A program made the position numbers and the translations under genes. Below are positions 26,672 to 43,975 of a stretch of DNA of 64,000 bases, in pieces (positions within the stretch are counted from its first letter, which is position 1; every line of letters begins with the position of its first letter). The DNA lies in assembly GCA_934307695.1 (NCBI GenBank), contig CAKRCS010000011.1, forward strand, positions 6,024-70,023, in the 5' to 3' direction. The notes below the pieces were generated by a model. The model was not told the origin of the DNA. It did no database searches and was given only the letters and a program-made list of their open reading frames with translations. This DNA comes from an uncultured Agathobacter sp. Its GTDB lineage: Bacteria > Bacillota > Clostridia > Lachnospirales > Lachnospiraceae.

Positions 26672-28069
26672 ATGGAGAACCATACAATCATAACATTAAA
26701 AAAGGGCGAGGGACGCGGGATAAAATCCGGCGGACTTTGGATATTTGACAATGAGATCGATACGATTACCGGATCATTTAAGAATGGCGGGATCGTAACG
26801 GTACACGACTTTGACGGCTACCCGATGGGGCAGGGCTTTATCAATCAAAATTCCAAGATAAGAGTGCGTCTGTTAAGCAGAAAGACAGACGTGGACATCA
26901 ATGAGGATTTCTTACGCATGCGCGTGAAAAATGCGTGGGATTACCGCAAGAGCGTGATGCATGGTGGCAACGAAAGTCGCGTGACAAAGATACCGGGAGT
27001 GGGAGCAACCGGCTGTCCGGATCTGAATTGCTGCCGTGTGATATTTGGCGAAGCAGACTGGCTTCCGGGGCTGGTGGTGGACAAATACAATGATGTACTT
27101 GTCGTGGAATCCCTTGCCCTTGGAATGGAAGCATTAAAAGAGACGATCCTTGCAAATCTCGTTCAACGGATGGCGCAGGATGGCATCAGGATCCGTGGCA
27201 TTTATGAACGTTCAGATGCCCCGGTCAGAAAGAAGGAGGGCTTGCAGCCATTCAAGGGATTTTTGTATGCAGCTGATATGGACGGTATACCGGGGAATGC
27301 CGGAAATATCGCGGACGCGAAGGCGGACGGCAGCACGAATAGCGGAGCGTTTTTTAATTACAAGGAGTTTGACACCAAGGTTGAAATCATTGAAAACGGT
27401 GTCCGCTATCTTGTCGATGTGGAAAATGGTCAGAAAACAGGCTTTTTCCTTGACCAGAAATACAATCGTCTGGCAATGCAGGGGATCGTGAAAGGAGCAT
27501 TGCAGCGCGAGGAGAATATCAAAGGTGCCGGAACGCTTAAGGTGCTCGACTGCTTTACACACATGGGCACATTTGCACTCAACTGCGGGCTTGCGGGTGC
27601 GACCGATGTTACGGGACTGGATATCTCTGAATTTGCGGTGGCACAGGCGAGTGACAATGCGCAGCGCAATGGCTTACAGGATAGCGTGCATTTTCGCGCG
27701 GCAAACGTACTTGATGAGCTTCCAAAACTTGCCGCAGCAGGGGAGAAGTTCGATCTGGTGATCCTTGATCCACCGGCATTTACAAAGTCGAGGGAGGCTA
27801 CCAAGAATGCCATCAAGGGTTATCGTGAGATTAACATTAAGGGACTCAAGCTGGTCAGGGACGGTGGCTATTTTGCAACCTGTTCCTGCTCACACTTTAT
27901 GACGCAGGAGCTTTTTACAAAGGTGATCGGTCAGGCTGCGCAGAGTGCGCATAAGCGCCTCCGCCAGATCGAGTTCCGGACGCAGGCGCAGGATCACCCG
28001 ATTCTGTGGGCGGCGGATGAGAGCTATTATTTGAAGTTTCTGGTCTTTCAGGTGGTTGAGGAGAAGTAA
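26672..28069 (+). CDS. RlmI-like 23S rRNA (cytosine-C5) methyltransferase
   Basis: The 465-residue protein has an N-terminal PUA-type RNA-binding domain (GGLWIFDNEIDTI...GGIVTVHDFDGYPMGQGFIN). A central region follows with PGLVVDKYNDVLVVES and GQKTGFFLDQKYNR, then a Rossmann SAM-binding domain (VLDCFTHMGTFAL, GLDISEFAVAQA). The catalytic motif IV is LDPPAFTKSR and the motif VI cysteine is in CSCSHFM. E. coli RlmI, which modifies C1962, has about 396 residues; here extra segments lie around 190-225. It probably acts on rRNA. It begins about 30 bp after the 18-bp repeat tract, behind AAGGAG. Confidence 0.87.
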   Translation: MENHTIITLKKGEGRGIKSGGLWIFDNEIDTITGSFKNGGIVTVHDFDGYPMGQGFINQNSKIRVRLLSRKTDVDINEDFLRMRVKNAWDYRKSVMHGGNESRVTKIPGVGATGCPDLNCCRVIFGEADWLPGLVVDKYNDVLVVESLALGMEALKETILANLVQRMAQDGIRIRGIYERSDAPVRKKEGLQPFKGFLYAADMDGIPGNAGNIADAKADGSTNSGAFFNYKEFDTKVEIIENGVRYLVDVENGQKTGFFLDQKYNRLAMQGIVKGALQREENIKGAGTLKVLDCFTHMGTFALNCGLAGATDVTGLDISEFAVAQASDNAQRNGLQDSVHFRAANVLDELPKLAAAGEKFDLVILDPPAFTKSREATKNAIKGYREINIKGLKLVRDGGYFATCSCSHFMTQELFTKVIGQAAQSAHKRLRQIEFRTQAQDHPILWAADESYYLKFLVFQVVEEK

Positions 28070-28126
28070 GAGCCGGGGCGGAAATGATGTAATAAGCAAA
28101 TATTCATCGCAGGAAAGCCACAAAAA

Positions 28127-28163
28127 GTGATGGCTAGGTGATAAAATGTACAATAGCCATCAC
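28127..28163 (+). other. Inverted repeat in the gap before the orphan methyltransferase
   Basis: GTGATGGCT (28127-28135) and AGCCATCAC (28155-28163) form a 9-bp stem with a 19-nt loop and no T-run. It could be a weak terminator for the RlmI-like gene or a boundary of the AT-rich segment that follows. Confidence 0.4.
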
Positions 28164-28220
28164 AGGAATGCGGTAAAGAATAGTGAGAAATGGAAAAATT
28201 GGAGGTTGATGAGGTAAATT

Positions 28221-29000
28221 ATGAGTAATATAAATGATGTGTCGATTGTGAAACAGCAATATGCTAATGCAAATAATTTAAATACAAGAATTTCAATTCA
28301 TGATAAATATTCGACAAATAAGATGGGGTTTGGAAATTGGATTGTTTCAAATTATAGAATTGATAAGGGGATGAACGTTTTAGAGCTAGGTTGTGGAACC
28401 GGCGATATGTGGAAAAACAGAGAGGGTTTGATAAAGTTATGTTCCAAATTGACGCTTTCAGATTTTTCCGAAGGAATGTTATCAACAGCAAAAAATAATA
28501 TAGGCGAGTGCAATAATGTTGATTATAAAGTTATTGATATTCAAGAAATTCCTTTTGCAAATGAAACTTTTGACGTCGTTATTGCAAATATGATGTTATA
28601 TCATGTGCCTGATATACATAAAGGTTTGGCAGAAGTACGACGAGTGTTAAAGAGAGGTGGATTTTTTTATTGTGCGACTTATGGAGAACATGGAATTATA
28701 GAATACCTTTCAAAAATGCTTTCGGCATATGGTGTTGAAGATAATATAAATAAGAATTTTACATTACAAAATGGATATGAGATATTAAGTAAAACTTTTT
28801 CTAGAGTCGAAAAGCTAGAATACATTGATTCATTGGCAGTTACCAATATAGATGATATGGTGGAATATATTTACTCTCTTTCAAGTATGACATCATTAGA
28901 TGGTGTGCCGAAGCAAGTCATAAAAGAGATTTTGATTAATAATACCACGAATGGAATTTTAAATGTGCCAAAGGAATATGGAATGTTTATATCGTCATAG
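28221..29000 (+). CDS. Class I SAM-dependent methyltransferase (orphan, AT-rich)
   Basis: The 259-residue protein has a Methyltransf_11-type Rossmann domain: motif I VLELGCGTGDMW, LTLSDFSEGMLSTA, then DIQEIPFANETFDVVIANMMLYHVPD and VLKRGGFFY. The C-terminal third (from about 175) is helical and not recognisable. Members methylate small molecules, quinones or natural products, so the substrate is open. Base composition is clearly more AT-rich than the genes on both sides (many AAT, ATA, TTA codons), suggesting separate acquisition. The start has GGAGG nearby (28201-28205), rather far from the ATG. Confidence 0.8.
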   Translation: MSNINDVSIVKQQYANANNLNTRISIHDKYSTNKMGFGNWIVSNYRIDKGMNVLELGCGTGDMWKNREGLIKLCSKLTLSDFSEGMLSTAKNNIGECNNVDYKVIDIQEIPFANETFDVVIANMMLYHVPDIHKGLAEVRRVLKRGGFFYCATYGEHGIIEYLSKMLSAYGVEDNINKNFTLQNGYEILSKTFSRVEKLEYIDSLAVTNIDDMVEYIYSLSSMTSLDGVPKQVIKEILINNTTNGILNVPKEYGMFISS

Positions 29001-39957: not shown

Positions 39958-40079
39958 AAGGTGAAATAACCATCACATGAAAGCCACAACAATAAACGAA
40001 CTTTAAATGTTATTTACAGTTGCAAAAAACGATAGGCAATTTTTTCAGAAAATCAATACTATAAAAAGGAGATCGCTTG

Positions 40080-41390
40080 GTGGCTGAGATAAAAAGTATA
40101 AACGAATTATTGAATATGAAATTGGACATCCCGGATTATCAGAGACCATATAAGTGGGATATCCAGAATATTGACGATCTTCTTTCAGACATTACGAATG
40201 CGATAAGTGCTGCTGATAGATATAGGGCTGACTTTAAATACCGTGTTGGAACAATAATATTACATGAAACGAAAGATGGCTTTTTTGACATTGTTGATGG
40301 ACAGCAACGGATTATTTCGCTGGTGCTATTGAAAAGGTGCATAAAGTCAGATTTTGACTGTACTATTCTTGAAAAATCCTTTACCAGCAAAATAACTCAA
40401 TACAACATCCACAGAAATTATGGATTTATAAGAGAATGGTTTTCCTTAAAGAGTGATAAGACAAAGACGGAATTTATAAACGCATTTGAAAATATTCTGG
40501 AGGTTGTTGTTATTTGTGTGGACAAGGTATCGGAGGCGTTTCAGCTTTTTGACTCACAGAATGCACGCGGAAAAGCTTTAGACCCGCATGATCTTTTGAA
40601 GGCATACCATTTGCGTGAAATGAAGCAATATCCATACGAGATGGAACACGCTGTTACAAAATGGGAGGCTAAAGATGCAGAACAAATAAGGGAACTATTT
40701 GATTTATATTTGTTTCCAATATGGAATTGGTCGAGGGGGATTAAGAGCAGACCATTTACAGCAAAGGAAATTGATACATATAAAGGGATAGCAGAAAGTT
40801 CAACATATTCTTATGCCAAAAGAGCAAGCAGGGCGATGCCATATTTTCAGATCACAGAGCCTTTTATAGCAGGAAATGATTTTTTTGAAATGGTTGAACA
40901 TTATATGTATTTGCTCAAGGATATCAAGTCTGAGATATGTAATAATCCGCGGTTCCAAGAAATAAAGCTGGTTTTATGTGGTGGCAGGGAAGTTAAAGCA
41001 CCAGAGGATATGGACAAGGTAAAATTTGGCTCCGCAGGCTTTGGATACACAAAAAATTTATTCTATTGTGCACTTCTTTGCTATTATGATAAGTTTCACA
41101 ATTTTGATGAAATGGCTGTTAAAAAACTTTTTTCCTGGGCGTTCATGCTCCGGGTAGATATGGATAATCTAGGATTTGATAGCATTAATAAATACGCGAT
41201 TGGGGATGAAAATTCTAAATATACAAATACAATAGCTTTATTTTCAAAAATTAGCTTTGCCCGTATTCACAATGAAATTTCAGGGCTGCAGATTAAGGTA
41301 AGAAGAAGTTCAGACAGTCCTTCTAATGAAAAATGGATGGATTTATATAATTCTATCAAAAAGATAAACGGATATGGAGAGGACAGATGA
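40080..41390 (+). CDS. DUF262 protein (first gene of a two-gene cassette)
   Basis: The protein has about 436 residues and an N-terminal DUF262 (ParB-like) domain: IPDYQRPYKWD, FFDIVDGQQRIISL and FDSQNARGKALDPHDLLKAYHL, the three marks of GmrS/SspE/BrxU-type proteins. The DGQQR motif of this group is used for NTP-dependent action. The C-terminal half is helical and carries no HNH motif. GTG 40080 lies 8 bp after AAAGGAG and is preferred over TTG 40077. It overlaps the next gene by four bases (ATGA). Base composition is AT-rich compared with the flanks. A restriction or antiphage role is inferred from the family. Confidence 0.82.
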   Translation: MAEIKSINELLNMKLDIPDYQRPYKWDIQNIDDLLSDITNAISAADRYRADFKYRVGTIILHETKDGFFDIVDGQQRIISLVLLKRCIKSDFDCTILEKSFTSKITQYNIHRNYGFIREWFSLKSDKTKTEFINAFENILEVVVICVDKVSEAFQLFDSQNARGKALDPHDLLKAYHLREMKQYPYEMEHAVTKWEAKDAEQIRELFDLYLFPIWNWSRGIKSRPFTAKEIDTYKGIAESSTYSYAKRASRAMPYFQITEPFIAGNDFFEMVEHYMYLLKDIKSEICNNPRFQEIKLVLCGGREVKAPEDMDKVKFGSAGFGYTKNLFYCALLCYYDKFHNFDEMAVKKLFSWAFMLRVDMDNLGFDSINKYAIGDENSKYTNTIALFSKISFARIHNEISGLQIKVRRSSDSPSNEKWMDLYNSIKKINGYGEDR

Positions 41391-43336
41391 GCGGATTAGT
41401 TACGGAACTTCATATTATTGGGGAAGATAATAATATATTTGACACAGATATAGAATATATAATCCCGTTGTATCAGCGGGCATACGCATGGGAAGATAAG
41501 CAGCTGATACAACTTATAGAGGATATTCAGGATGTTGCTGAAGGAGCAAGTTATTATATTGGCTCGTTAATTGTGTCAAAACAGTTTGGAAAATATGAAG
41601 TAGTTGATGGACAACAGAGACTTACCTCATTGTACCTCTTATTGAACTGCTTAGGAATTAAGACAAAACCTACGCTTACTTTTGCGTGTAGGGAAAAGTC
41701 GAATTATACACTAAGAAATATTAGCGATTTGCTTCTTGAAAATCGTAGTAAACTGGATATGGACAGAGTTGAAGCAGGAATTTTGCGAGGGATAAAGATA
41801 TTATCTCATGAAATCGGAAGAACTGATTTTGACAAAGATTCATTTCTGAAGAAGTTAGCAAAAGTTATCGTATATAGAATAGAGGTTCCGAAAAATACAG
41901 ATCTTAATAGATATTTTGAAATTATGAATACCAGAGGTGAGCAGTTAGAGCAGCATGATATTTTAAAGGCTACACTTATTAGCTATTTGAGCGACGAGTC
42001 TGAAAGGAGACTCTTTGCTAAAATTTGGGATGCTTGCAGCGATATGACGGGCTATGTGCAGATGCATTTTGTGAGCAAAAATAATGCAGTCCGCGAAGCT
42101 ATTTTTGGCGGCGAATGGAATTTGATGCCATCTGGAAACTGGTCAAAATATAAAAAAATCATGAAAGAAGAGGCGGATGAGACAACAGGGTATTGCATCA
42201 AAGCTATTATTGATAAAGATTTCGAGGTTGAAGATGATGAAGGATATGTAGATGGAGACATACGGGTTCGCTTTGAAAGCATAATAGAGTTTCCTCATTT
42301 TTTATTACATACACTGAAAGTATTTGTTGCATTATATGGGATTGAACATGAGAATGCGGATTCAAAAATTACCGATGAATTATTAGATGATAAAAAATTA
42401 ATAGAGGCTTTTAACAGAGTTGTAGTTCATGGCGTTTGCAAAGAAGGCAGGATGGCGGATGACAGAGAGGCATTTTCGCGTAATTTTATAGTTTGTTTAC
42501 TGAGAACAAGGTATTTATTTGATAAATACATCGTAAAGAGAGAATATGCGAATGACAACGCTGATGGAGAATGGAGTTTAAAGAGCCTATATGTTTCCGG
42601 GCAGCAGTCTAAGAAGAAACCCTATTATAGAAATTCTAAGTTTACGAGATCCGGGGAATGGAATTCTACAAATGATTGGAGAACAAAGACCAATATTATG
42701 ATGCAATCAGCGTTGCGAGTTTCGTATACATCGCTAAAGGTAATGCATTGGATTACAAAACTCCTTATCTGGCTGTCAGAAGATAATTGTAAACATATTA
42801 AAAATGAGGATATTATAGAATTTGATGCTATTGCCGAGGAGATTGCAATCGAGGCGGTTAAAGAGAATTTCTTTGATGTATGTCAAGATGGCGTTTATGC
42901 TATGGGGGTTAATACTCCGCATATTGTATTCAATTACTTGGATTACCTCCTTTGGTATTATGATCGCAAAGGTATGAAAAAGTATAGTGATTTTGTCTTT
43001 GAATTTAGAAATTCCGTAGAGCACTGGTATCCTCAAAATCCATCAGAAGGTACATTCGACCAGTGGAAGGACGGAGTAGACCAATTTGGAAACCTTTGTA
43101 TTATTCAGCGCAATGTGAATTCAAAATTTTCTAATATGTCACCGGAGGCTAAAAAGAGTACATTTAAGGATTTGATTTCAAAGGGTAGCATTAAACTTCG
43201 CATTATGTGTGAATTGACAGAGAAAAAAGATGATAAGACTGCCAGCTTGTATTGGAAGGAGACTATGTATAAAAAGCATGAAACAGAGATGCTAAAGTAT
43301 TTGATGGATGCCTGTGATATCGAAAATAATATCTGA
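41387..43336 (+). CDS. DUF262-DUF1524 protein, GmrSD-like nuclease candidate
   Basis: The 649-residue protein has an N-terminal DUF262 domain (IPLYQRAYAWED, KYEVVDGQQRLTSLYLL, IMNTRGEQLEQHDILKA). A long helical middle follows. The C-terminal DUF1524/HNH-like domain, about 530-600, contains SVEHWYPQNP and FGNLCIIQRNVNSKF-x-N-x-SP-x-x-KK, matching the His-Asn-Asn layout of GmrSD nucleases. GmrSD-type enzymes are type IV restriction systems that cut modified phage DNA. Its ATG overlaps the stop of the first DUF262 gene, so the two are made together. This protein has both domains, making the partner a second DUF262 subunit. Confidence 0.84.
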   Translation: MSGLVTELHIIGEDNNIFDTDIEYIIPLYQRAYAWEDKQLIQLIEDIQDVAEGASYYIGSLIVSKQFGKYEVVDGQQRLTSLYLLLNCLGIKTKPTLTFACREKSNYTLRNISDLLLENRSKLDMDRVEAGILRGIKILSHEIGRTDFDKDSFLKKLAKVIVYRIEVPKNTDLNRYFEIMNTRGEQLEQHDILKATLISYLSDESERRLFAKIWDACSDMTGYVQMHFVSKNNAVREAIFGGEWNLMPSGNWSKYKKIMKEEADETTGYCIKAIIDKDFEVEDDEGYVDGDIRVRFESIIEFPHFLLHTLKVFVALYGIEHENADSKITDELLDDKKLIEAFNRVVVHGVCKEGRMADDREAFSRNFIVCLLRTRYLFDKYIVKREYANDNADGEWSLKSLYVSGQQSKKKPYYRNSKFTRSGEWNSTNDWRTKTNIMMQSALRVSYTSLKVMHWITKLLIWLSEDNCKHIKNEDIIEFDAIAEEIAIEAVKENFFDVCQDGVYAMGVNTPHIVFNYLDYLLWYYDRKGMKKYSDFVFEFRNSVEHWYPQNPSEGTFDQWKDGVDQFGNLCIIQRNVNSKFSNMSPEAKKSTFKDLISKGSIKLRIMCELTEKKDDKTASLYWKETMYKKHETEMLKYLMDACDIENNI

Positions 43337-43396: not shown

Positions 43397-43975
43397 ATGG
43401 CTTTTTATCACGCATCACAAGTAAAAGGAATAACGGAATTAGAACCGCGGATATCGAATCATGACATCCCGCTGATATATTTTTCGGATAAGCGGGAGAA
43501 TGTTCTGGTATATCTGAGTAATGCCGTCGAGAAAGTGTGCAAGGAAGCGGGTTTCGCCTACACAGGATCATGGTACAAGTGGGGACCGTATGGATTTGAA
43601 AAAGACGGGCGGCTCCGGCTGGAAGAATATTATCCGAATGCACTGGAAGATACCTACAAGGGCGTGCAGGGGTACATCTATTCCTGCAATGAGATAATGT
43701 TGAACGATGAAATCGACATAAAAATACCCAATGCGTATGTTTCCTCACAAAAGACATTGGTTGACTCCTGTGAAGTTGTGCCGGATGCGTATGAAGCGAT
43801 AATTAACGCAGAACGCGAAGGAAAGATCACCATACTAAGATATGATGCGTTCATCCAGAACAGACAAAGGGAAGCATGGCTTAGAAGCATCACGCTGGAA
43901 GAATACGAAAACAGCGCGGAGCATCCGGAGTACAGATTTTTCCTCAAGACAAAATTTAGTGACATATTAAGGTGA
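43397..43975 (+). CDS. Uncharacterised protein, ART-like start
   Basis: I do not recognise an experimentally known homologue of this 192-residue protein. It begins FYHASQVKGITELEPRIS and has LIYFSDKRENVLVYLSNAVEKVCKEAGF, given in part only. The order (an H in YHAS, then a strand with YFS, then a helix rich in alanine/valine) resembles the start of ADP-ribosyltransferase-like folds such as DUF3990 or RES domains; this is weak evidence. The sequence has no membrane segment. It lies 60 bp after the DUF262 pair in the same orientation, but its composition is closer to the chromosome, so it may not belong to that cassette. No terminator separates them. Confidence 0.6.
   Translation: MAFYHASQVKGITELEPRISNHDIPLIYFSDKRENVLVYLSNAVEKVCKEAGFAYTGSWYKWGPYGFEKDGRLRLEEYYPNALEDTYKGVQGYIYSCNEIMLNDEIDIKIPNAYVSSQKTLVDSCEVVPDAYEAIINAEREGKITILRYDAFIQNRQREAWLRSITLEEYENSAEHPEYRFFLKTKFSDILR

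Follow-up and report, generated by a model that had tools for sequence, protein, structure and literature searches.

The window analysed here, a stretch of 64,000 nucleotides from an uncultured Agathobacter sp. (GenBank assembly GCA_934307695.1, contig CAKRCS010000011.1, positions 6,024 to 70,023 of the forward strand), carries two overlapping genes, A and B, that form a conserved two-gene cassette of the GmrSD family with the layout of TgvAB. With a probability of roughly three in four, the pair is predicted to encode a two-subunit, modification-dependent (type IV) anti-phage restriction enzyme. What is directly established is that the layout holds, that A and B each keep their DUF262 motifs and only B has HNH residues, and that the two genes stay adjacent among relatives and co-diverge. 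A preliminary description of this DNA had proposed a GmrSD-type antiphage candidate with an added, nuclease-free DUF262 subunit, and Pfam matches, motifs and relatives support that proposal. It had also supposed that such a pair may be little described, which does not hold, since TgvAB is reported with the same layout (PMC11411939) and GrwAB as a second system with two DUF262 proteins (PMC12137116). Both the published TgvAB layout and the nature of the second half of A, which is DUF7834, had been overlooked.

Domains, motifs and fold of the two proteins

In Pfam, A matches GmrSD_N (1.9e-29) and DUF7834 (1.3e-52), and B matches GmrSD_N (5.6e-33) and GmrSD_C/DUF1524 (2.8e-10), with the nuclease-end motifs EHWYP, GN and N present; weak matches to Apicomplexa microprotein and His_kinase lay below the cut-off and were disregarded. 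DUF262 marks in both genes and a DUF1524/HNH-like end in the second only, as first described, are thus borne out by domains and motifs alike.

A protein search (E <= 0.001) returned 7,747 relatives of A and 6,762 of B, of which the best 120 of each were used; with 61 further sequences from a profile search, motifs were examined in 181 A relatives and 120 B relatives. Of the 181 A relatives, 180 have an intact DGQQR (a single Q is changed in the remaining one) and 179 an intact YQR, the other two being gapped there, and the DUF262 motifs, DGQQR included, are intact in all 120 B relatives. Residues H546, N569 and N578 of B are invariant in the same 120 sequences and in 11 of 11 diverse pairs, in which A is 23–78% identical to that of the window; every A of these pairs matches DUF7834 and every B matches GmrSD_C. 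Since the motifs are kept across the relatives examined, they are not chance strings. A [DE]HxxP string occurs in one of the 181 A relatives and was taken as chance.

Some relatives (loci are designated here by L numbers) depart from this plan in length. In L002, L009 and L010, B has an extra C-terminal part of approximately 170 aa, without a Pfam match in L002, and in the distant pair L035:5766-9360 some 190 residues of A precede the DUF262 match, and DUF7834 is matched in part only.

The preliminary description had looked to Foldseek comparison of both proteins; this succeeded for A, whose model has DndI as its best match (PDB 9JFL), and failed for B, whose model is poor and returned no match at E <= 0.001. 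Helices are predicted in B at 302-382 and 426-530. The model of A superposes loosely on DndI 5-474 and BrxU 1-436, up to just before the HNH residues of those enzymes, and two single-chain enzymes (L036 and L037) have a weak DUF7834 match between their two GmrSD domains (24.4 and 19.8 bits, against a Pfam cut-off of 27). As hhalign found no match (probability < 1%) between the C-terminal half of A and the middle or HNH part of B, the equation of DUF7834 with the GmrSD middle domain draws only on the fold and on L036 and L037. The model of A and these single-chain enzymes suggest that A probably corresponds to a GmrSD enzyme lacking nothing but the nuclease, which is possibly a new point.

The pair as a unit and its surroundings in relatives

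Loci were gathered via A alone, from genome contigs (11 loci), a DUF7834 survey, plasmids and viral contigs (79 loci, six of which carry the A-type C-terminal domain). B adjoins A on the same strand in 22 of the 24 loci with this domain, the window included, at gaps of -58 to +5; merging the near-copies L030/L060 and L028/L062 leaves 20 of 22 distinct loci. The exceptions are L001, in which a transposase gene follows A, and L061, in which the contig ends. Excluded from the count were repeats of other loci (L012-L026, L038-L040), the rlmD regions described below (L041-L059), a fragment (L011) and L035, which falls under the profile threshold though it is also a pair. Because B stands beside A in 22 of 24 loci chosen by A, a partner for B can be argued for. 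Two copies are decayed: in L001:6053-8931 the A match ends at residue 419 and the adjacent transposase gene is oppositely oriented, and in L004:4943-7884 A is broken by an in-frame stop and B by a frame shift.

The two proteins also co-diverge at the level of their sequences: the distance matrices of A and B in the 11 pairs correlate at 0.97, a value that none of 5000 permutations reaches and to which shared ancestry contributes. A tree was built from 78 DUF262 domains, 23 of them from A, 21 from B and 34 from other DUF262 proteins. In it, B forms one clade (99/96) and so does A (99/96), counting in the A-like protein of L035, which was labelled 'other' in the run; the single-chain enzymes L036 and L037 are nearest to B (96/82), and the deepest fork is weak (40/66). 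That A arose by recent duplication of B is not supported by these separate clades, nor by the nearness of B to the single-chain enzymes.

The hosts of the pair include Lachnospiraceae and Bacteroidota, and it is also carried on plasmids of Klebsiella. Genomes with DUF7834 above the cut-off number 2 among 299 from the phylum of a Eubacterium and 5 among 296 from that of a Porphyromonadaceae bacterium, both counts including the genome on which the survey was centred; none of 14 control genomes has the domain above the cut-off. Among 72,556 plasmid records, 919 match A (855 from Klebsiella), all at less than 60% identity. E. coli chromosomes carry a pair nearly identical to the Klebsiella plasmid pair (296 chromosomal places, 11 on plasmids), and DNA like the L028 pair, with >=80% of the query covered, is present in 251 of 5,426 complete E. 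coli genomes.

The neighbourhoods of 15 loci were inspected (the window, L001, L002, L005-L007, L009, L010, L027, L028 and L030-L034); neighbours were judged by open reading frame (ORF) list or annotation and selected ones were scanned, so that counts of defence genes are lower bounds. Such genes lie near the pair in at least 8 of the 15, in agreement with the recurrence in defence settings that had been proposed as a test; because defence contexts recur, the opposite outcome then considered, a consistently non-defence context, does not describe these loci. Type I restriction-modification (RM) genes are near the pair in L001, L028, L031, L032 and L033: it sits between hsdM/hsdS and hsdR in L031-L033 and beside hsdS and hsdR in L028. 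The order in L033 is hsdM-like, hsdS, A, B, hsdR, the first of these being what we take for hsdM from the look of its sequence. BREX genes (PglZ, BrxL) accompany the pair in L009/L040, and in L002/L039 its neighbours are MzaB, a ZorD-like helicase, a cytosine methylase and Vsr. A further pair, L034:7473-10858, stands beside dnd/pbe-type phosphorothioation genes (DndF, DndD/PbeC and a 3'-phosphoadenosine-5'-phosphosulfate (PAPS)-reductase-type gene) and an HNH_4 gene; on account of this placement, some pairs may interact with phosphorothioate marks.

Horizontal transfer, likewise suggested at the outset, is supported by several sequence features. The cassette, described from the start as AT-rich, has a GC content of 35.7%; 543 windows of equal length, taken in 100-base steps so that they overlap one another but never the pair, have a mean of 47.8% (minimum 42.2%, sd 2.5). 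Its relatives occur on plasmids and viral contigs, a Tn916-type integrase gene lies just upstream of the L006 pair and an IS66 transposase gene near L030. Of 150 genomes searched, 135 have relatives of rlmD, and the regions of seven of the eight best-scoring were examined (the second best adjoins the end of its contig): none of these 7 contains the pair, some are short downstream (approximately 1.4 kb in L055), the downstream genes differ, and an exact empty site was not found among the seven. AT-richness does not characterise the family; of 16 loci, 12 have a pair lower in GC content than its flanks and 4 a pair that is higher.

Known systems, proposed mechanism and rival explanations

TgvAB, reported in 2024, is a two-gene system in which the two genes, the DGQQR motif of each and the His-Me residues are described as needed against Tevenvirinae/T-even phages, and which acts on phages with hypermodified cytosine (PMC11411939). 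The window pair shares with it the order of genes (DUF262 only first, DUF262 with DUF1524 second), the presence of QR, DGQQR and FxxxN in both subunits, and the restriction of the His-Me residues to the second; some relatives of the window pair are moreover in type I RM operons, L033 with the same gene order. The differences are that the window pair lies outside any type I RM operon and has another host. Embedding in type I RM genes is not defining for TgvAB, as the published counts are 1,341 tgvAB hits in many orders vs 79 five-gene hits (PMC11411939). Since VC1767/VC1766 (TgvAB) are absent among the relatives listed, the assignment is made by layout and motifs, not by sequence kinship; by those two features the cassette belongs to an already described kind. 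The plasmid matches listed are mostly from Klebsiella and Acinetobacter, none from Vibrio, of which three records matched overall. The findings suggest a single old lineage with this layout that has spread widely by transfer and extends over Clostridia-type bacteria, Bacteroidota and plasmids of Klebsiella.

Other systems fit less well. GrwAB (Vibrio cholerae, 2025) likewise comprises two DUF262 proteins with a single DUF1524, and both genes and both DUF262 motifs are reported as needed (PMC12137116); its partner, however, is the second gene and has an extended multi-domain C-terminus, whereas in the window it is the nuclease that is encoded second, and the partner extends only a short way beyond DUF7834. 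Identity with GrwAB was therefore rejected on gene order and on the partner's C-terminus, and so was the classical split into GmrS and GmrD (a DUF262 protein and a separate DUF1524 protein), because B holds both domains. BrxU, Eco94GmrSD and SspE are single chains, whereas the window adds a nuclease-free second chain beside B. DndI, described as a homodimeric nicking HNH enzyme whose DUF262 bears DGQQR (PMC11662687), resembles A in fold and in that motif, and differs in having its own HNH and in being tied to phosphorothioate marks, which release it from DNA. In PADLOC-DB 2.0.0 (2023), which is older than TgvAB, the best matches are HEC-06 for A and Orf5, then HEC-06, for B, and the best-scoring stretches to the HEC-06, Orf5 and SspE models are short DUF262 parts only. 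Two-DUF262 systems are covered by a review (PMC12409362), and an earlier paper had already observed that DUF262 genes are enriched beside GmrSD homologues (PMC4619093). A search of the literature from 2024 on two-protein DUF262 type IV restriction matched the TgvAB work only.

By analogy with these enzymes, A, as a nuclease-free GmrSD scaffold, would pair with B via the DUF262 and helical parts, in the manner of the protomers of BrxU and DndI; BrxU is described as an intertwined dimer that separates upon binding of nucleoside triphosphate (NTP). Both DUF262 domains would bind and hydrolyse NTP during the sampling of DNA. Hydrolysis would be set off by a modified base on the invader's DNA, which the single HNH site of B would then nick or cleave; the host's own DNA, being without the mark, would be spared. 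Nicking is plausible because there is one HNH per A:B unit, and hypermodified cytosine may serve, by analogy with TgvAB, as a first guess for the mark. A narrower version can be put forward tentatively, as possible rather than probable: the pair would be an obligate GmrSD heterodimer, in which A lost only HNH (DUF7834 being the orphaned middle domain), B is the sole nuclease and both are working NTPase sensors. Such an arrangement would explain why TgvB fails alone. If true, only one strand would be nicked by the complex, and only on agreement between the two diverged DUF262 readers, which amounts to a two-key lock against self-damage at half the cutting power. The pair thereby offers a candidate answer on two points, the nature of the nuclease-free partner and the failure of the nuclease subunit to protect by itself; the annotation names DUF7834 and 'DUF262 domain-containing protein' conceal this.

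The notion that such pairs read a mark on the invader has to be weighed against others. The fold of A and the surroundings of the L034 pair would also suit a guard of the DndI type, which attacks DNA lacking a host mark (e.g. phosphorothioate) and releases marked self DNA; in DndI itself, ATP hydrolysis on marked DNA is reported to free the enzyme from self DNA (PMC11662687). This appears unlikely, since a host-made mark is required and yet no modification genes were recognised beside the window pair (the rest of the genome was outside the scope), and the inspected pairs have differing partners or none recognised. It may alternatively be thought that A is mainly an inhibitor or chaperone of a toxic nuclease B, which a phage sets free so that the cell dies (abortive infection). 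The genes are coupled with A first, the nuclease is in B alone, and the TgvAB report allows TgvA a regulatory or structural role, leaves the failure of TgvB alone unexplained, and records growth inhibition or partial lysis of some TgvAB cultures at higher multiplicity of infection (MOI; Bas40, Bas46, Bas47) (PMC11411939). However, an inert antitoxin would have no need for the DGQQR that nearly all A relatives examined (180/181) keep, the DGQQR of TgvA is reported as required for protection, and TgvAB cultures with Bas35 grow normally up to MOI 5, on which ground its authors favour direct action (PMC11411939); this explanation is quite unlikely.

The two remaining alternatives concern whether the cassette acts in defence at all. 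That the cassette was acquired but is silent or in decay, without a function at present, would be in keeping with the decayed copies L001 and L004 and with the + strand upstream of A, in which the promoter scan gave no promoter-like match; the scan as a whole gave 12 matches against a shuffle mean of 16.5, and the terminator scan 1 against 2.6, neither exceeding shuffles. Both reading frames and all motifs are nevertheless intact, with a ribosome-binding-site-like sequence and the ATGA overlap in place, and loss of function is very improbable. A role in host DNA repair or metabolism is suggested by neighbours that look metabolic by eye in the window, L005 and L007, and by the one neighbour scanned in each of L005 and L007, which had no defence match. 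Against this, defence genes recur as described above, mobile-element or plasmid neighbours are found at other loci, and the distribution of DUF7834 is patchy; such a role has hardly any probability.

Features of the cassette and its neighbours in the window

The two genes, with their four-base overlap, are placed as in the preliminary description, including its start for A. The ORF lister had begun A at TTG 40077, three bases upstream of GTG 40080 (MAEIKS...); the latter is the better start because it lies 8 bases past AGGAG and agrees with the starts of relatives, e.g. L007.

Table 1. Coordinates of the two genes, their domains and their motifs in the window
Feature	Position	Strand	Remarks
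Gene A	40080..41390	+	436 aa, DUF262 + DUF7834, without nuclease domain; TgvA-like subunit
Gene B	41387..43336	+	649 aa, DUF262 + helical linker + DUF1524; TgvB-like nuclease subunit
AGGAG of gene A, ribosome-binding-site-like	40067..40071	+	Read in sequence; putative function
A DUF262 / GmrSD_N (PF03235)	40101..40610	+	Pfam
A YQR motif	40137..40145	+	Sequence and relatives
A DGQQR nucleotide-binding motif	40296..40310	+	Sequence and relatives
A FxxxN motif (FDSQN)	40548..40562	+	Sequence and relatives
A DUF7834 (PF25202)	40638..41321	+	Mostly helical in model; like GmrSD middle domain by fold
ATGA stop/start overlap of A and B	41387..41390	+	Putative translational coupling
B DUF262 / GmrSD_N	41435..41977	+	Pfam
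B YQR motif	41471..41479	+	Sequence and relatives
B DGQQR motif	41606..41620	+	Sequence and relatives
B FxxxN motif (FEIMN)	41915..41929	+	Sequence and relatives
B DUF1524 / GmrSD_C HNH (His-Me) domain (PF07510)	42929..43297	+	Pfam
B predicted catalytic H546, N569, N578	43022..43120	+	Invariant in relatives

The upstream neighbours include a tRNA_U5-meth_tr-type methyltransferase gene, and downstream there is an ORF without a family match, followed by a helix-turn-helix (HTH) gene. From the look of their sequences, we take this methyltransferase to be of RlmD type, the other upstream neighbour to be an endonuclease IV-like gene, and a further downstream neighbour to be a HAD-like gene. The ORF directly downstream of B (43397-43975, 192 aa) has no Pfam, PADLOC or NCBIfam match over the cut-off and no relative in loci L001-L029. 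The kilobase with the lowest GC content in the window lies elsewhere, at 28001-29000 (33.3%), and holds an ORF (28221-29000) that by eye is presumably S-adenosylmethionine (SAM)-dependent methyltransferase-like.
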